Origin: Limosilactobacillus oris DSM 4864
GTDB lineage: Bacteria; Bacillota; Bacilli; Lactobacillales; Lactobacillaceae
Direction of reading: 5' to 3'
Assembly: GCF_001434465.1 (NCBI RefSeq)
Contig: NZ_AZGE01000015.1
Coordinates: 1 to 41,944, forward strand
Length of the DNA stretch: 41,944 bases
This document shows, piece by piece, positions 13,185-21,093 of the stretch. The notes below the pieces were generated by a model that saw only the letters and a list, made by a program, of their open reading frames with translations, had not been told where the DNA came from and searched no databases. The first letter of the stretch is position 1, and every line of letters begins with the position of its first letter. Both the position numbers and the translations under genes were made by a program.

Positions 13185-16100
13185 ATGAAAAGTAACTTCT
13201 CATTTTTAATGGATGAACCGTTAACGGCGCAGTACTTTGAAAGTGCAATGCAAGCCGAAGCTATCTACACGCAAGGGTTTTATAATCCGGTATTGACGCT
13301 GACGCGGACCGTCGCCGAAAACCTGGCACGCGATATTGCTGACCAGAAGTTTGTAAAGGTCGGGGCACACAGTACCTTTAGTAATGTTTTGCATGACTTG
13401 AAGCAGAAAAATATTATTGATTCCTATGCAATTGACCTCTTTTACGCAATCAAGAAGCCTGGAAACAGAGCTGCTCATGAACTGGCAACTGCAACCCTGA
13501 TTAGTCAGGAAGAGGCGCTTGACACAATTAAGCATCTTTATATCTTATTGGTCTGGTTCGTCAATACTTTTTATGATGAGAAGGTAGATGTGACGGCTTT
13601 TAAGGAGCCAAAACTTGATGACTTCTTGTACTCAACGACGGTGCGTCCGCCGGCATCAGACCGTAATATCATCTACGTTCAAAGTGCTGATACCTCGAAT
13701 GGGCACTTTGCAGAATACGTGGGCAACCTCAAGATTGGGAAAGCTCAGGCTGGTGACTTGGCCCGTGATAATAGTGATAACAGCCCTGAGATGCGTGAGG
13801 ACGCCGAAAAACGGATTAAGCAGTATATGACCACATCCGGGCTTCCGCTAAATCTTGAGTGGGTCGAGCTGGCATACCGGAAGTCAGACGACATGTGGTT
13901 CACGGATACTGACGTTCACCGGGTTCTTGAACGTTCTGGTGTTAAGCACAGTGATATTTTACAGGGACAGGAGTGGTTTCACACCGACCTTCCGACAGCA
14001 AAAGCAGCCATCAAGGCCGTTAAAAACCAACAGTCGACCATTGATTTGAAACGGCAGGGTCAGCCGAGAGTCAAAATTGTTCTCCGGCCGGAGCAAAAAG
14101 AGGCTGTCGAAAAAGCAAAGAAGGCATTTAAGAAGCATAACAAGATGTTGTGGAATGCCAAAATGCGCTTTGGTAAAACGCTCTCAGCCTTGCAACTGGT
14201 CAAGGATGAAAAATTTGAACATGTGCTAATCATGACTCACCGGCCGGTCGTAGATGAAGGTTGGTTTGAAGATTTTAAGAAGATTGGGATGCCTGAAGCT
14301 GGTTACCTGTACGGTTCTAAGAAACAGGGTGCCACCTTCAATGAGCTTGAAGACTCTGACCTGCCTTTTGTCTACTTTGCTTCCCTTCAGGACTTACGTG
14401 GTTCTGAAGAGGCCGGCGGGAAGGCCGGTGATAAGAACCGAGAACTTTTTGATACTCATTGGGACCTGGTAATTATTGATGAAGCCCATGAAGGAACCCA
14501 GACAGAGTTAGCGCAGAACGTTACGAAACTTGTTTCTAGTGACGATACCAAGCTTCTCAAGCTGTCGGGGACTCCATTTAATATCCTTGATGAGTACGGT
14601 GAAGATCAGGTTTACACCTGGGATTACACTCAGGAGCAACAGGCAAAACTTCAATGGGGAATTGACCATCCGGGTGAACCAAACCCGTATGCAAGCCTGC
14701 CTAAGGTTAATATGTTTACCTTTGAAATGAACAAGAACTTTGATGAGCCACAGTTTATAGGGGATGGTACGCACTCCTTTAACTTCAAGGAATTCTTCCG
14801 TGTCAATAGCCAGGGGAAATTTGTGTATGAGGATAAGGTAAAACAATTCCTCGCAAACATTACTTCGCCGGATAGCCGGACCAATTACCCATTCTCAACG
14901 AAGGAGTTCCGGGATAATCTCCGCCACACACTCTGGATTATGCCCGGTGTAAAGGAAGCTGGCGCGATGGAGGCGCTCCTTAAGAAGGATCCGGTTCTGG
15001 GCGAGGCAAGTGGCTACCAGATTGTCAACGTGGTGAAGAATGTTGCCGGGGACGATACCGGGATAACTTCAGAAAGTGATGTGGACCGGGTTAATGAGGC
15101 AATCGGGGATGACCCTGCTGCTACCAAGACGATTACTTTGACGGTTCGTAAGCTCACAACCGGTGTAACGGTCAAGCCGTGGACGGGTGTTGTATTCCTG
15201 TCTAACACCAACAGTGCCATGCAATACCTGCAAGCGGCTTTCCGTGCGCAGACGCCGTACTCGTCGCCAACTTTCGGGAAGAAGACCAATTGCTATATCT
15301 TCGACTTTGCTCCTGACCGGGCTTTGACGGTTATGGCCGAATCAACCCAACTGCGAACTGGGGTTGGTAAGCGAACCAGTAGTGCTCAGAAGGACCAGAT
15401 GAAAGAGCTGATGAACTTCCTCCCAATCATTGGAATGAACGGGAACGGAATGAAACGTTACAGTGTTGACACTATGCTGGCACAAATTAAGCGAGTTTAC
15501 GCCGAAAAAGCAGTCCGGACTGGTTTTGATGATGACTCCCTGTACAGTGATGAGTTGCTGATGCTGAAAGATGTTGATCTGAAAGAATTCAATGATCTTA
15601 AGGCAATCGTCGGGACAACTCCATCTGAGAAGAAGCCAGTGAAAGTCGATATTAACCACCAGGGGCTCACTGATGAAGAGTACAATGACGCACTAAACGG
15701 TAAAGAAAAGAAGCGGAAGAAAGACCGAACGCCAGAAGAAGAAGCCGCCATCGAAAAGATGAAGGAGCTGAAAAAGCAGCGGAAGACTATGATCTCAATT
15801 CTGCGGTCCATTTCGATCCGGATTCCAATGATGATTTACGGGATGGACATTAAACTGTCTGATGACGTGAACATCAATAAATTCATTGAAAACGTCGATG
15901 ATGAGTCCTGGAAGGAATTCATGCCGAAGGGTGTTACCAAAGAGCTCTTCCGTAAATTCAGCAAGTACTATGATCAGGATGTCTTTATTGAAGCGGGTCG
16001 AATTATCCGGCGGAAGGTTAAAGATCTGGATAAGTTGGATCCAATCGAACGGGCCGAAAAATTAGCCGAAATTTTCGGGACGTTTAGGAACCCCGATAAG

Positions 16101-17606
16101 GAAACCGTTCTGACACCATGGAGGGTTGTCAATATGCACCTGGGTAAGACCATTGGGGGACTTTCCTTCTTTGACGATTCTTACCAGTACACTACTAAGG
16201 ACGGTGTAAGTGCGAACCACTGGATTCAAACCGAATATACGGACCAAGTATTTAAGGACGACACGCACATCTTAGAAATTAACTCCAAGACGGGGTTGTA
16301 CCCACTCTATGCGGGGATGACCTTGTACTGGCAAGCATTCCAGAAGCTAAATGAAAAGACCGCTGGAAAATTTGGCTTGGACGACCAGTTATTTATTTGG
16401 CAGCGGATTTTGCGTGAAAACTTATTTTTAATCGCTAAGACACCGATGGCCAAGACGATTGCTCAACGGACCCTTGCTGGCTACCAGGATTTTGATATGA
16501 ACGTCGAGTATGTGCCAAACATCGTTAAAGATGCTAAAGAAGATGTAAGCGCAGAAGCAAAGAAAATTAAAGGGGTATTTGGTGGTATGAAGTTTGATGT
16601 TGTGATTGGAAATCCGCCGTATCAAGAATCTACGAATAATACTAGTGATAATTCTATTTACAACTTATTTATGGATCTTTCATTTGAGCTCTCTGGTCTA
16701 GTGACTTTAATAACACCTGCTAGATTTTTGTTTAATGCAGGAAAAACTCCAAAAGCTTGGAATAAAAAAATGCTGGAGGATCCACATTTGAAAGTTGTTA
16801 AGTATTATAAAACAAGTGATTTGGTGTTTCCTCGAACTGACATTAAGGGTGGTGTAGTAATAACCCTTAGAGATGATAAAAAAAGGTTTGGGGAAATTGG
16901 ACTATTTACACCTTATGAGGAAATTGACCATATAATTAAGAAAGTTAGATTGATTTCAGACATATATTTGTCCAGTATCGGTTTTGGGCAGAATAGCTTT
17001 AAATTCACAGATGTGCTCTATGAAAAGAACCCAGATTTGCTAGGAGTTCAGAGTAAAGGTCATAAATATGACTTAAAGTCTAATGTTTTAGAAAAAATGA
17101 ATAAAGTATTTCAGCCCAACAAGATGCCTGGTAAAGAACAAGTAATTATTATAGGTCGCCTAAATAATGAACGGATTTCAATGGCTATAGAAAAGGAATT
17201 TATCACTAATGATACGAACTTAAATGGCTTTAAGCTTGTGCTGCCAAAGGCTAATGGTACCGGGAAATTAGGAGAAAAAATTAGTGAGCCATTTATAGCA
17301 GGGCCCGGTGTTGGATTAACGGAAACCTTTATCAGCTTTGGAAATTTTAAAACAAAAGATGAAGCCAATAATTTACTTAAATATGTAAAGACAAAATTTG
17401 TTAGGTTAATGTTAGGTACGATAAAAATCACTCAGGATAATACAGTGGCTAAATGGAGAATGGTTCCCTTACAGGAATTTACGTCTAATTCTGACATTGA
17501 CTGGTCCAAGTCTATTCCAGATATTGATCAACAACTTTACAGAAAATATGGTTTATCCCAAGATGAAATTAATTTCGTTGAAACAAAAGTACAAGCAATG
17601 CAATAA
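13185..17606 (+). CDS. Helicase/methyltransferase fusion of a restriction-modification system
   Basis: A 1473-residue multidomain protein. Residues 1-130 resemble DUF4145-type N-termini of restriction enzymes. Residues about 160-275 have the pattern of a GIY-YIG/T5orf172 nuclease (NIIYVQS, NLKIGKA, TTSGLPLNLEWVEL, VHRVLERSGV, GQEWFHTDLP); this is tentative. An SF2 helicase follows, with Walker A MRFGKT (327-332), DEAH (432-435) and a QAAFRAQ motif VI near 683-689. N1143-P-P-Y1146 (VVIGNPPYQES) is motif IV of N6-adenine methyltransferases, followed by about 330 residues likely to include the target-recognition domain. No SAM-binding FxGxG/EPSAGxG motif is seen in this protein; it lies in the next gene, 12 bases downstream. 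The role would be restriction of foreign DNA, probably ATP-driven. From about 16590 the gene becomes markedly AT-rich. GGGGA lies nine bases before the ATG. Confidence 0.85.
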   Translation: MKSNFSFLMDEPLTAQYFESAMQAEAIYTQGFYNPVLTLTRTVAENLARDIADQKFVKVGAHSTFSNVLHDLKQKNIIDSYAIDLFYAIKKPGNRAAHELATATLISQEEALDTIKHLYILLVWFVNTFYDEKVDVTAFKEPKLDDFLYSTTVRPPASDRNIIYVQSADTSNGHFAEYVGNLKIGKAQAGDLARDNSDNSPEMREDAEKRIKQYMTTSGLPLNLEWVELAYRKSDDMWFTDTDVHRVLERSGVKHSDILQGQEWFHTDLPTAKAAIKAVKNQQSTIDLKRQGQPRVKIVLRPEQKEAVEKAKKAFKKHNKMLWNAKMRFGKTLSALQLVKDEKFEHVLIMTHRPVVDEGWFEDFKKIGMPEAGYLYGSKKQGATFNELEDSDLPFVYFASLQDLRGSEEAGGKAGDKNRELFDTHWDLVIIDEAHEGTQTELAQNVTKLVSSDDTKLLKLSGTPFNILDEYGEDQVYTWDYTQEQQAKLQWGIDHPGEPNPYASLPKVNMFTFEMNKNFDEPQFIGDGTHSFNFKEFFRVNSQGKFVYEDKVKQFLANITSPDSRTNYPFSTKEFRDNLRHTLWIMPGVKEAGAMEALLKKDPVLGEASGYQIVNVVKNVAGDDTGITSESDVDRVNEAIGDDPAATKTITLTVRKLTTGVTVKPWTGVVFLSNTNSAMQYLQAAFRAQTPYSSPTFGKKTNCYIFDFAPDRALTVMAESTQLRTGVGKRTSSAQKDQMKELMNFLPIIGMNGNGMKRYSVDTMLAQIKRVYAEKAVRTGFDDDSLYSDELLMLKDVDLKEFNDLKAIVGTTPSEKKPVKVDINHQGLTDEEYNDALNGKEKKRKKDRTPEEEAAIEKMKELKKQRKTMISILRSISIRIPMMIYGMDIKLSDDVNINKFIENVDDESWKEFMPKGVTKELFRKFSKYYDQDVFIEAGRIIRRKVKDLDKLDPIERAEKLAEIFGTFRNPDKETVLTPWRVVNMHLGKTIGGLSFFDDSYQYTTKDGVSANHWIQTEYTDQVFKDDTHILEINSKTGLYPLYAGMTLYWQAFQKLNEKTAGKFGLDDQLFIWQRILRENLFLIAKTPMAKTIAQRTLAGYQDFDMNVEYVPNIVKDAKEDVSAEAKKIKGVFGGMKFDVVIGNPPYQESTNNTSDNSIYNLFMDLSFELSGLVTLITPARFLFNAGKTPKAWNKKMLEDPHLKVVKYYKTSDLVFPRTDIKGGVVITLRDDKKRFGEIGLFTPYEEIDHIIKKVRLISDIYLSSIGFGQNSFKFTDVLYEKNPDLLGVQSKGHKYDLKSNVLEKMNKVFQPNKMPGKEQVIIIGRLNNERISMAIEKEFITNDTNLNGFKLVLPKANGTGKLGEKISEPFIAGPGVGLTETFISFGNFKTKDEANNLLKYVKTKFVRLMLGTIKITQDNTVAKWRMVPLQEFTSNSDIDWSKSIPDIDQQLYRKYGLSQDEINFVETKVQAMQ

Positions 17607-17618
17607 GAGAATTTAGTA

Positions 17619-18332
17619 ATGAGTGATGAAAAAATAATCAAATCTGCCGACCGGGTGAAGAACCATGGTGAGGTCTTTACGCCTAAGCGGGTAGTCGACC
17701 TAATGCTCGACCAACCAGAAATAACGGCCAAGATTAATGACCTGCACGCCACCTTTCTAGAACCGTCTGCTGGTGAAGGTGCCTTCTTAACCGAACTCTT
17801 GAAGCGGAAACTCAAGGTTGCCGCCAAGCAAAGCAAGACTGCTAGTGCCTTTAATACAAACGCGCTGGTCGCATTATCAACGTTATACGGAATTGAGTAC
17901 CTTGAAGACAATGTTGAGATGCTCGTGATGAACATGATGATGACGTTTACTCAGACCTATTCAAGAATCACTGTCGATGACTTTAAGGGACGGGTTAATG
18001 ACCATGTTCTGAAGAGTGCTCAAGTGATTATCCGGGCCAATATGGCGCAGGGGGACACACTCAAGGGAATTACTGACACGGGAGCGCCAATTGTGTTTAG
18101 TGAATGGCAAGCGGTGAATGGCCAGCCTAGCAAGGTACGACGCATGGAATACACCTTTGAGTCAATTCTGAATCAAAGTGGCCCTACTGGAACGGTTCAG
18201 CATTCTAGTCAGCAATTAGATTTATTTGCTGGGACGGAAGACTTTGATGATGCAAAGCAAGAAGATGATATTTCGTTGCCACAGTACGCACTTTGCAAGT
18301 GGACGGATATTTATAAGCAGGAACTTGAATAG
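17619..18332 (+). CDS. DNA N6-adenine methyltransferase subunit with SAM-binding half only
   Basis: A 237-residue protein. NHGEVFTPKRVVDLM (residues 14-28) is motif X, TFLEPSAGEGAFL is motif I (SAM binding), GIEYLEDNVEMLVMN fits motif II, and ANMAQGDTL fits motif III. The catalytic (N/D)PPY motif that should follow is absent; the C-terminal 80 residues are acidic and end with QQLDLF-type text. The matching NPPY motif is in the preceding protein. I infer that the two polypeptides assemble into one working methyltransferase. The gene is 12 bases after the large gene, clearly in the same operon, and its base composition returns to about 50% GC after the AT-rich end of that gene. A terminator follows. 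Confidence 0.82.
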   Translation: MSDEKIIKSADRVKNHGEVFTPKRVVDLMLDQPEITAKINDLHATFLEPSAGEGAFLTELLKRKLKVAAKQSKTASAFNTNALVALSTLYGIEYLEDNVEMLVMNMMMTFTQTYSRITVDDFKGRVNDHVLKSAQVIIRANMAQGDTLKGITDTGAPIVFSEWQAVNGQPSKVRRMEYTFESILNQSGPTGTVQHSSQQLDLFAGTEDFDDAKQEDDISLPQYALCKWTDIYKQELE

Positions 18333-18505: not shown

Positions 18506-18558
18506 TACCATAAAAAGGCTTTCTGAAATGTGTAAGCTACGTGACATGGGGAATCAAG

Positions 18559-19047
18559 ATGAATTATGAAAGAATGCGAGCTTTGAATCCCAATAAGATG
18601 CTGGAGAAGGGAAAGCGGTATGCCCGGGCAGGAAATCAAAAGAATGCTTTTTTGTGGTATAAGCAAGCGGCAAAACGTTGCAGTCCAGAAGCTTGCTTTT
18701 TAATGGGTGAGGCGTATTTCTTAGGTAAGTATGTTAAGCAGGATTATCGACAAGCATTGCAATATTACAAGTTGGCGGGAAAATATTTAGGTAGTGAGAA
18801 ACAAGATGGCCCGATTATGGCAGATATTTTGTATCGATTATCAGTTTGCTACTTTTACGGTTATGGGGTAACTCCAAATAATCTACAAGCTCTGGCATAT
18901 GAAGATGATGCGGAGGCGTTTATCGTGTATACTCGTTCAGACCCCAGAAAGTATGAGTGGCAATGTCGGCGGATTTTCTATTTAGGGCTTAAAATACGCC
19001 GGGCTTATGAGCGAGAAATAATGGACAAAGATAGCGAGGATTTGTAG
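18559..19047 (+). CDS. Sel1-repeat (TPR-like) protein
   Basis: A 162-residue protein made of alpha-helical Sel1-like repeats: KGKRYARAGNQKNAFLWYKQ, then CFLMGEAYFLGKYVKQDYRQ and YRLSVCYFYGYGVTPNNLQA, each with the typical A/G spacing (yFlG-G-v-qdy-qAl-yy). No signal peptide is evident, so it is probably cytoplasmic. Sel1 proteins are interaction scaffolds; the partner is unknown. GTG 18541 is in frame, but ATG 18559 has GGGGA about seven bases upstream and is preferred. It leads a run of five small genes (18559-21093) that I read as one transcription unit. Sel1 proteins also occur among immunity genes of toxin systems, which is only a suggestion here. Confidence 0.78.
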   Translation: MNYERMRALNPNKMLEKGKRYARAGNQKNAFLWYKQAAKRCSPEACFLMGEAYFLGKYVKQDYRQALQYYKLAGKYLGSEKQDGPIMADILYRLSVCYFYGYGVTPNNLQALAYEDDAEAFIVYTRSDPRKYEWQCRRIFYLGLKIRRAYEREIMDKDSEDL

Positions 19048-19094
19048 TAATTGGTCCTAGAACTTGAAGTCTAGACTAGGAGGCTTCCTAAACT

Positions 19095-19784
19095 ATGTAT
19101 GCGTGGATAAGTGACGAAACGAAAAAAACTTGGCGGGGGATGATTTTTGCTTATTACGGTTCTGAGCAGGATCCCTATGATTTTCACTATGTTGTGCTTG
19201 ATGCGGATAAAAATCACCTAATTAACGTAAACCTTTACCATACCGGACCAAGCCGACAAATCCAAACTCGGGTAGTATTAATTGATTCGGGGATGGATGA
19301 TTGGATTCAAACTAAAAATCAGGGGATTGTAAATTTCCTAAGTGGCTACTGTGCGTCTCAACTTGCAGAGCAAATTTCACCGGAGCTTTTAGAGAAATGC
19401 ATCCATTTGGACAAGCAATACAACTATCAAAAGATTGTAGAGGTGAAGGGAGCAACAGGGATTGAGAACCTATTGGAGATTACTGGCTACTTTCATGATG
19501 CCCACATAATTAATGTAGAAAGAAAAGATCCTGACCACCTTAAGGTTTTTTTCGAACCAACTTGGGGCTATAAGTTGACGCTATTTTTCTATGGGCAGAC
19601 CAGTTATGATCTCGGCGCTGATCCAGAATACAATTGGTGGCTTGAGGCCTCGTTATTTTTTGAGGATGGCTATTATTGTTTGTGTGATGGTGAGGATGTT
19701 CGGCATTTTTCCATAAAGGAACTTAATTGCTGGTTCAGGTCGAGGAAAATGGCGTATAAATTAGAACCGTGGCCGTTGAGTTAG
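19095..19784 (+). CDS. Hypothetical protein, 229 aa
   Basis: No family recognised. The protein is soluble, acidic and rich in aromatic residues (WRGMIFAYYGSEQDPYDFHY, LGADPEYNWWLEASLFFEDG), with no membrane segment or signal peptide. The C-terminal part (about 130-225; ENLLEITGYFHDAHIINVER, then YKLTLFFYG) has the beta-rich look of small immunity or DUF-type proteins in which a short beta-sheet core binds a partner. AGGAGG (19078-19083) is 11 bases before the ATG. It follows the Sel1 gene by 47 bases and nearly touches the next gene, indicating co-expression. Confidence 0.7.
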   Translation: MYAWISDETKKTWRGMIFAYYGSEQDPYDFHYVVLDADKNHLINVNLYHTGPSRQIQTRVVLIDSGMDDWIQTKNQGIVNFLSGYCASQLAEQISPELLEKCIHLDKQYNYQKIVEVKGATGIENLLEITGYFHDAHIINVERKDPDHLKVFFEPTWGYKLTLFFYGQTSYDLGADPEYNWWLEASLFFEDGYYCLCDGEDVRHFSIKELNCWFRSRKMAYKLEPWPLS

Positions 19785-19794
19785 GGTGAGCAAG

Positions 19795-20247
19795 ATGAGA
19801 AAAGAGGTTGCAGTAACTTTAAAAACACCGGTAGGGAACTTTTGGCTGGATGCGGATGGTCGGCGCTTGACCTTCGATGTGATTGATGTAACGCGCGAAG
19901 TAAATGCAACGGATGACTCTTTTGGCGTTGAAAGATCATTTATTTTAGCACCACACTTGCCTGAGCACTTTAAGATTGAATCGCTGATGCTGAAAACCAA
20001 TTTGTGGCTATCAAAACGAAACTATTATGATAGTTGTTCCGATGAATTTCAGGATGGCTCGGTGTGGATTATTAATGATAAGGCACTTCAAGTAGCGATA
20101 TACGTCGAGAATGAAGAGTATGACGATGTCGTTGTTTCAATGGACTGGCAGAGACTCCCGGAGTATGCCCACGTTGATGAGAAATACCGCACCCGAATGA
20201 TTTTTCAGGTGACGTATAAAGCTGGCTGCCCCATTCTTACAACATGA
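19795..20247 (+). CDS. Hypothetical protein, about 150 aa
   Basis: No family recognised. Soluble, predicted mixed alpha/beta, with WLDADGRRLTFDVIDVTREV near the N-terminus and a tryptophan-containing VVVSMDWQRLPEYAHVDEKY near the C-terminus. GTG 19786 is in frame two bases after the previous stop, but ATG 19795 has AGGGTG six bases upstream and fits better. Overlap of the ribosome-binding site with the previous stop codon suggests translational coupling. Confidence 0.65.
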   Translation: MRKEVAVTLKTPVGNFWLDADGRRLTFDVIDVTREVNATDDSFGVERSFILAPHLPEHFKIESLMLKTNLWLSKRNYYDSCSDEFQDGSVWIINDKALQVAIYVENEEYDDVVVSMDWQRLPEYAHVDEKYRTRMIFQVTYKAGCPILTT

Positions 20248-20263
20248 GAAAGAGGGCAGCGAC

Positions 20264-20677
20264 TTGTCCTTATTCGATGTCTGTGGTCAGATGATGTTCC
20301 TCCAAAGGGGCCAGTTTCCTGCGACTATTGAAACATACGTGGACTATAACCAGCTGATACTCTATCGCTTTAACGGGCGTTGCTATCACCGTTATCCACT
20401 TACGTTCAAGCGTAGTCCGATTGATATTTCAGGATTTAAAGTTCGGGTTACCACACTGGATACCAAGCGATATGCGGGCTTTGTGGCAAACTACCGTAAC
20501 TGCACCCATGATGGCTTCCTGCAGATTAATCGCTATGATTTTGCTAATCAATCTCAGGAACCAGCTCAAATATTCATTCCTTTAGCTGATATAGCGCAGG
20601 TTGAAGCAATTTTACAAAGTCGACCCCGGTGGGATGGTAGTGACAATAATGATTTCTCGTTTAGATGGAGGAGGTAG
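20264..20677 (+). CDS. Hypothetical protein, 137 aa
   Basis: No family recognised. The 137-residue protein is basic and beta-rich, without membrane segments. It starts with TTG at 20264; AGAGGG (20251-20256) is seven bases upstream. Its stop codon lies just before the ribosome-binding site region of the next gene, so the two are probably coupled. The start is the best available because no in-frame ATG occurs near a ribosome-binding site. Confidence 0.6.
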   Translation: MSLFDVCGQMMFLQRGQFPATIETYVDYNQLILYRFNGRCYHRYPLTFKRSPIDISGFKVRVTTLDTKRYAGFVANYRNCTHDGFLQINRYDFANQSQEPAQIFIPLADIAQVEAILQSRPRWDGSDNNDFSFRWRR

Positions 20678-20682
20678 CCCCT

Positions 20683-21093
20683 ATGCAAGACATCACCAAA
20701 ATCCAACTCGATTCAGAAAATTTTTCTTTCTTTTCGCCACCAAAGCGGGGCGAGGAGGTTGGCCAAGTACTGACGATTTTTGCGGATGGTCGGGTAGTAT
20801 TCTCAGCAGAAGATGGCATCGGCGAGGTTCGCCATATCGAAAAGCAGATTGATGCTGATACAGCGGAAACTGTCTTGGGAATGGTGGCTGCAAAATTCCG
20901 GCACCCCCACGACCGGGAAGACTTTGTTACTGATGTCGGAACCTGGCAATTGACGATATTCCATTCTATTGGGCAGTCGGAGTTTACGGGTTCCGTATTT
21001 CCTAACCCCCGCCTGGCAGATATTTCCGACACTATCCGGCAGGTGACGGCGATTCCTAATCTGTGGGTATTCGATGGCATCCAGCTTTACTAG
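20683..21093 (+). CDS. Hypothetical protein, 136 aa
   Basis: No family recognised. A small soluble acidic protein with beta-strand rich text (GQVLTIFADGRVVFSAED; DVGTWQLTIFHSIGQSEFTG). The pattern of a short readout strand followed by a W-x-L-T-I strand resembles small DUF proteins that occur beside toxin or immunity genes, but I cannot name one. GGAGGAGG lies eight bases before ATG 20683; an in-frame ATG at 20665 is part of that ribosome-binding site and is rejected. Last gene of the five-gene run, followed by a terminator. Confidence 0.65.
   Translation: MQDITKIQLDSENFSFFSPPKRGEEVGQVLTIFADGRVVFSAEDGIGEVRHIEKQIDADTAETVLGMVAAKFRHPHDREDFVTDVGTWQLTIFHSIGQSEFTGSVFPNPRLADISDTIRQVTAIPNLWVFDGIQLY

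Follow-up and report, generated by a model that had tools for sequence, protein, structure and literature searches.

A candidate two-gene restriction-modification system of Limosilactobacillus oris with S-adenosylmethionine binding apparently moved to a second polypeptide

Introduction

Restriction enzymes that carry their own methyltransferase risk protecting an invader ahead of cutting it. How one pair of proteins might avoid this outcome is the question raised by two adjacent genes of Limosilactobacillus oris DSM 4864, found in the 41,944-nucleotide stretch analysed here (contig NZ_AZGE01000015.1 of assembly GCF_001434465.1, positions 1 to 41,944 of the forward strand; hereinafter the window). 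The first gene encodes a large protein with a helicase and, further on, the catalytic motif NPPY of an N6-adenine methyltransferase; the second encodes a small protein, denoted S, with motifs for binding S-adenosylmethionine (SAM). An earlier note, made from the letters of the sequence alone, had read the pair as one methyltransferase split between motifs III and IV. Here we describe evidence that the large chain carries a degenerate SAM half of its own, denoted A', ahead of the catalytic half, denoted B, and that S is a homolog of A' with intact motifs. The explanation that we consider probable, if only narrowly so, on the grounds of motif conservation and modelling, is that the pair forms a two-gene restriction-modification system with a build like that of Type ISP enzymes and a nuclease of the GIY-YIG type, in which SAM binding would have moved to the second polypeptide and methylation would need S. 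Relatives of the pair in many bacteria, plasmids and phages suggest an unusual tie of DNA marking and cutting to one recognition part.

Complementary motif conservation in S and the large protein

The two open reading frames (ORFs) share a common frame and are separated by a TAA and four codons. Both ORFs, the NPPY of the large protein and the GEVFTP (17-22), EPSAGEGAF (48-56) and GDTL (145-148) motifs of S lie where the earlier note had placed them, and S indeed has no NPPY-type motif. The accompanying statement that the large protein has no SAM-binding motif did not hold, as a motif X-like stretch (ETVLTPWRVVNMHL, residues 973-986) is present together with a variant motif I (EINSKTG within ILEINSKTGLYPLY, about residues 1029-1042) roughly 110 residues N-terminal of NPPY. 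Across the aligned columns of 113 distinct A' sequences, Lys stands without exception in place of the first motif-I Gly, and the second Gly is always retained (113/113 each); the motif-II acid is replaced by Ala, Gly, Ser or Pro in 113/113 (Ala1084 in the window), and the residue two places past it is Thr or Ser, again in all 113. One clear exception, the relative L081, whose A' has no KTG motif, stands outside this sample. NPPY or NPPF is retained in the intact B parts listed. The large chain has the NPPY/NPPF catalytic motif and the complete predicted methyltransferase fold, as a gamma-class N6-adenine methyltransferase requires, and the canonical SAM site (GxG of motif I and the motif-II acid) is not present in it. 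A', judged by these motifs, looks like a SAM-dead half joined to a catalytic motif.

The pattern in S is the reverse. In 134 distinct S sequences, motif I (E-P..GxG), the D/E acid of motif II, the Asn ahead of motif III and the Trp behind it (FSEW in the window) are each found in 134/134, and an NPPY-like motif in 0/134. A pattern-based tally of motif I covers 156 of 162 S ORFs, the six others being fragments (L018, L019, L056), a slightly different spelling (L049) and two viral ORFs (L147, L148). Pfam recognizes in S the first part of N6_Mtase and nothing else, and the S profile matches A' weakly. S and A' are homologous halves that fit one and the same place of the methyltransferase fold, and S looks, from its motifs, like a second, SAM-competent copy of the A' half that has no catalytic motif. 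Because A'/B and S show opposite motif conservation, SAM binding and catalysis seem to lie on different chains.

The central idea of the earlier note, that the SAM determinants and the catalytic motif belong to different chains, therefore survives in the complementary conservation of their motifs, although the large chain keeps its own degenerate half with motifs X, I, II and III. We reject a simple cut between motifs III and IV for the window, given that A' is present both by sequence and in the AlphaFold2 model, where the predicted fold pairs NPPY with A'. By the note's own criterion, an intact SAM motif on the large chain would refute its reading; the outcome lies in between, the corresponding half being there but with Lys for the motif-I Gly and no motif-II acid. 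Non-overlapping motif sets in S and B are found in phage relatives without a recognised A'; the window chain has the degenerate copy of the S half as well.

Several rules define these samples. The motif-II residue of S was read from aligned columns. The 134 S leave out matches under 140 bits, duplicates, loci L001-L021, two S-B fusions and ten loci whose genes are broken or fragmentary (L037, L038, L042, L054, L056, L079, L127, L128, L135, L139); four of these ten contigs re-entered from a second viral scan, and their S were counted if over 140 bits. The 113 A' omit duplicates and those loci of the first set that the S sample also omits, together with L081 and with CL165, which is not an A'; they do not include the phage chains whose motif I is lost.

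S differs from A' in a further respect. Its C-terminal part includes QLDLF, which fits QL[SD]LF, presumably the consensus for binding the beta sliding clamp. This pattern is found in 35/134 S, against 0.07 expected by shuffling, in 0/115 A'/A'-B sequences and in 0/106 helicase proteins. The looser Q[LM].[LIM]F occurs in 56/134 S, 13-48 residues from the C-terminus. AlphaFold2 assigns a predicted local distance difference test score (pLDDT) under 50 around QLDLF.

Domain organization of the large protein

The earlier note's fusion of the catalytic half to a helicase is confirmed, and the same chain also has a nuclease (Table 1). The Pfam scan of the large protein yields the DUF4145 region, a MUG113 match that is weak (under the family cut-off), the ResIII helicase and the Eco57I methyltransferase domain; it yields no Mrr-like family at E<=1. 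A GIY-YIG-type nuclease is a credible assignment from the alignment because the signature residues are near-invariant over 95 aligned relatives: Y164, K183, G185, D241 and E263 are identical in 95/95, R210 in 94/95 and H245 in 92/95. T5orf172 matches the domain in a phage relative at 2.3e-9. RFGKT occurs together with DEAH/DEYH in 107 of 111 helicase proteins. The N-terminal region is not found in some relatives, such as that of Enterococcus faecium (L023). Searches of PDB sequences with queries P0001 and P0002 and alignments A1, A6 and A8 gave no significant relative, the best being Type I M subunits (E 0.06 and 0.22).

Among loci whose S proteins are closely related, the recognition region of B diverges freely (238 pairs, median distance 0.64), a pattern that a change of specificity would be expected to leave. 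The variable C-terminal region of the large chain would act as a target-recognition domain (TRD).

Table 1. Features of the two-gene locus, in window coordinates.
Feature	Nucleotides	Strand	Residues	Evidence or remarks
Large protein: DUF4145-like region, GIY-YIG-like nuclease, superfamily 2 (SF2) helicase, A', B, target-recognition region	13185..17606	+	1473 in all
N-terminal DUF4145 / HsdR-N-like region	13185..13616	+	1-144	DUF4145 38-117, PDC-M16A 1-144, PRK11448 1-149
GIY-YIG-like (MUG113/T5orf172) nuclease domain	13662..14021	+	~160-279	Pfam and aligned relatives
SF2 helicase/translocase core	14040..15440	+	~286-752	RFGKT 328-332, DEAH 432-435; ResIII 1.3e-15
A': degenerate SAM half (motif X, I, II, III-like)	16062..16574	+	~960-1130
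A' variant motif I, EINSKTG	16275..16295	+	1031-1037	Lys1035
B: catalytic half, then variable target-recognition region	16575..17603	+		NPPY 1143-1146 (nt 16611-16622); Eco57I 1.4e-24
S: half-methyltransferase, motifs X, I, II, III intact, no NPPY	17619..18332	+	237 in all
QLDLF of S, in low-confidence C-terminal part	18213..18227	+	199-203	fits QL[SD]LF

Past S, at 18541-21093 of the window, several small ORFs follow one another; the first has Sel1 repeats and the rest show no clear Pfam families.

Gene architectures and distribution

Matches to S occur in 20 of 295 Lactobacillales genomes, a few being fragments or weak. Of 72,556 plasmid records, 70 gave a match, which in 47 covers most of S. 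Among the best 80 of at least 548 relatives in the genome scan, which were those used, 77 have methyltransferase and helicase parts alongside S. The viral scan gave 58 loci; the profiles used detect methyltransferase parts in only 29 of these and helicase parts in 27. Moreover, S lies next to A'-B more often than chance would have it, because a viral scan seeded with A'-B, not with S, gave 39 full A'-B loci of which 37 carry S beside. Of the two others, L192 lies at the edge of its contig, and L201 showed no S. In L201 (1245-4462), A'-B and a helicase are preceded by an NPPF-containing ORF of 737 residues, M.EcoRI-like by eye, and one of 344 residues.

Over the 95 loci of the S tree, four architectures were tallied. 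In architecture A (39 loci, the window among them) one giant chain accompanies S, with the large gene first in the window and L022 and S first in L023-L026. Architecture B (39 loci) consists of three genes: S, A'-B and a nuclease-helicase. In architecture C (15 loci), B alone forms a gene of ~350 residues, and A' is on the helicase chain where the helicase gene is complete. Architecture D (L060 and L066) combines an S-B fusion with a separate helicase gene; the helicase chain of L060 carries A', and in L066 the ORF is short and no A' was seen. The labels need 5 changes on the tree, with D as one event with full support.

A few further observations concern these genes. The A'-B proteins of three-gene loci, for instance L027 (8740-10281), have a GKCIFCGA Cys-x-x-Cys stretch between motif III and NPPY with both Cys invariant (11/11 aligned), which possibly binds metal. 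Enterococcus faecalis pTEF3 (L224) has only a 612-residue piece of the large gene, with an IS256 transposase gene upstream, and an E. faecium plasmid (L225) has a 990-residue piece; S is annotated in neither. Treponema pTS1 likewise has no annotated S, and the record, which ends at the B gene, does not cover the upstream side of that gene.

Relatives with S beside or joined to B

The homologous pairs and single-chain versions that the earlier note had suggested seeking were found. In L152/L228, which form one partial contig, S (139 aa) is followed by a B ORF (283 aa) starting at strand beta4, and in L232/L233 a B ORF that begins 28 residues ahead of NPPY is followed by S; neither pair has a recognised A'. 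In Aeromonas phage Aeh1, again with no recognised A', p090 (L235, 3001-4248) is a single chain of 415 residues whose NPPY lies close to the N-terminus and whose S half spans residues 285-384. By motif order it is a circularly permuted S + B adenine methyltransferase; it is annotated as hypothetical. L060 and L066 provide the fusions. Furthermore, in L155, L157, L234, Ah1 (gp104) and S-CAM7 the NPPY chain retains the space of A', where neither inspection by eye nor a pattern search shows a motif I, and each has an S half close by. Motif I of this S is intact in L155, L157 and Ah1; in S-CAM7 it has the form LDN..GxG, and in L234 the second Gly is missing as well. Thus, some phages seem to have S + B as their natural methyltransferase unit. 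L229-L231, which are ordinary single chains, do not fit this pattern. Inspected by eye, gp104 of Ah1 (L028, 4285-5922) joins a GIY-YIG-like N-terminus to two halves, one degenerate and one with NPPF, and has no helicase; the next gene is S.

Proposed mechanism and alternatives

We propose that S would bring SAM to the NPPY of B for methylation of the target adenine, and that A' would keep B folded and on the motor for recognition and restriction. Through its clamp-binding-like peptide, S may also reach replicating DNA and re-methylate the new DNA. S would meet B either by displacing A' or by docking on A'-B; displacement would be the most economical use of both the NPPY and the SAM site of S and agrees with architectures C and D. 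If this is true, SAM binding has been disabled on the cutting chain and outsourced to an apparently clamp-targeted subunit, so that the risk of protecting the invader is solved with one recognition domain, and the plasmid 'N-6 DNA methylase' gene family without a catalytic motif is accounted for as well.

Several results weigh against this proposal. The Lys and Thr/Ser of A' are strictly conserved and A' may therefore bind something, possibly SAM. AlphaFold2 was applied to single chains, namely the window pair linked in frame and the natural S-B fusion L060. Residues 926-1239 of the large protein fold as one methyltransferase domain, with strand/helix structure at pLDDT 80-93 from motif I to NPPY (1025-1144) and pLDDT under 50 in the motif X-like stretch; in the linked pair B is placed with A', not with S, and model positions 2-315 superimpose on whole methyltransferases with a root-mean-square deviation (rmsd) of 3.6-6 in nearly all of the 50 matches listed. 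L060 is modelled with S and B as separate halves (rmsd 13.7-21.1 for matches spanning both) and a beta4/NPPY block at pLDDT 40-58, from an alignment whose S rows are misaligned in the linker, 69 of 70 being without the conserved Trp in its column. The single fold of both proteins that the earlier note had expected thus has a mixed outcome: B does complete a fold in the linked window pair, with A' as its partner, and the S-B fusion is not modelled as one fold. S also tracks A' better than the B core in a mirror-tree comparison over 108 loci, with r of 0.81 for A', 0.67 for the B core and 0.49 for the recognition region (maximum of 200 permutations each, 0.125). A mean-field coupling analysis of S-A' versus S-B contacts was uninformative at an effective number of sequences (Neff) of 43, its signal being dominated by B. 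As for the phages, 17 of 23 distant viral S loci have no NPP-bearing ORF nearby (plus strand, >180 aa, ~3.5 kb), and S-like genes may therefore stand alone; L154 has, beside S, an NPPF chain with a Gly-rich motif I of its own; and the S + B phages are distant from the window system. S-like genes may serve other uses. The viral S without a nearby NPP ORF, possibly lone SAM-binding halves, are L126, L138, L141, L142, L144, L145, L147, L149-L151, L156, L158 and L161-L165.

A bolder form of the favoured explanation, not exclusive of it, is unlikely though far from negligible: B would be common to A', in a restriction complex that would recognise the site and leave it unmethylated, and to S, in a modification enzyme. 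Such a switch of partners fits the homology of S and A' and their same place in the fold, the confinement of the clamp peptide to S, the presence of A' and the helicase on one chain in architectures A, C and, for L060, D, and the occurrence of B as a gene of its own in C and as part of an S fusion in D, but architecture B fuses A' to B and not to the helicase, AlphaFold2 gave no S-B assembly and there is no direct sign of exchange. Conceivably, although we would class this too as doubtful, the two N-terminal halves are interchangeable, A' on the nuclease-motor leading to cutting and clamp-recruited S to marking of new host DNA. If so, the choice of half, not the use of separate enzymes, would decide between cutting and marking.

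The main rival, which we deem rather improbable, holds that A'-B works as a methyltransferase in its own right, complete but with an atypical SAM site (Lys in motif I; Thr/Ser past the missing motif-II acid), and that S is a regulatory or SAM-sensing subunit. The K..G and T/S conserved in 113/113 A' are what would be expected of a functional site, yet the motif-II acid, near universal among SAM-dependent methyltransferases, is gone in the same 113. Likewise, the one predicted methyltransferase domain, its retained NPPY and the better tracking of A' by S suit this alternative, whereas several phage NPPY chains are without any motif I and have a separate S nearby, and relatives without a recognised A' use S with B. 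That S is merely a decaying methyltransferase leftover with no role, as its half fold and missing NPPY could suggest, is very improbable and contradicted by conservation, its motif residues being identical over 134 divergent S and its gene lying beside A'-B in 37 of 39 loci.

Comparison with known systems

The favoured two-gene explanation, with SAM binding on S, places the window system near several known enzymes. PADLOC labels the large protein as a Type IIG restriction enzyme-methyltransferase. Type IIG enzymes combine nuclease and methyltransferase in one chain with no helicase motor; unlike a simple Type IIG enzyme, the window chain has such a motor, with its RFGKT and DEAH motifs. The PADLOC model PDLC03626 (Type IIG, 1359 positions) is matched best by the large protein over 1107-1471 and by unfused phage relatives over their helicase and methyltransferase parts. 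It names one chain, and its label covers neither the S partner nor the degenerate SAM site.

Among split methyltransferases, we take M.AquI and M.EcoHK31I to be split or permuted 5-methylcytosine (m5C) DNA methyltransferases with the motifs of one enzyme spread over two polypeptides. In contrast, the window system is of the N6-adenine type by motif and has an extra, SAM-dead copy of the split-off half on the restriction chain. In the manner of circularly permuted methyltransferases, Aeh1 p090 has S and B on one chain in permuted order. Our searches of the open-licence PMC literature found no published description of the pairing of S with A'-B, and earlier annotation in REBASE is possible; the parts of PMC9519451, PMC12707154, PMC10853773, PMC3874165 and PMC7736820 available to us contain no account of it.

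The available part of the account of Type ISP enzymes (LlaGI and LlaBIII) describes a single polypeptide with an N-terminal Mrr-like PD-(D/E/Q)XK nuclease, an SF2 translocase, a gamma methyltransferase and a C-terminal TRD, with ATP-dependent translocation and cleavage between head-to-head sites (PMC3874165). The window chain resembles these enzymes, as described there, in its SF2 translocase followed by a gamma methyltransferase and a C-terminal region with the probable role of a TRD. Unlike them, its nuclease is GIY-YIG-like, not Mrr-like PD-(D/E/Q)XK, and in place of a single self-sufficient polypeptide there appear to be a large chain with a degenerate SAM site and a second gene, S. In DndH, according to the portion of the report at hand, an inactive DAM domain with an eroded SAM motif is found inside a restriction protein, and [SDN]PP[FYW] is also lost (PMC10853773). 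The window system, compared with that portion, likewise keeps a methyltransferase domain with an eroded SAM motif in a restriction protein; unlike DndH, it retains NPPY, and its SAM half would be supplied by S.
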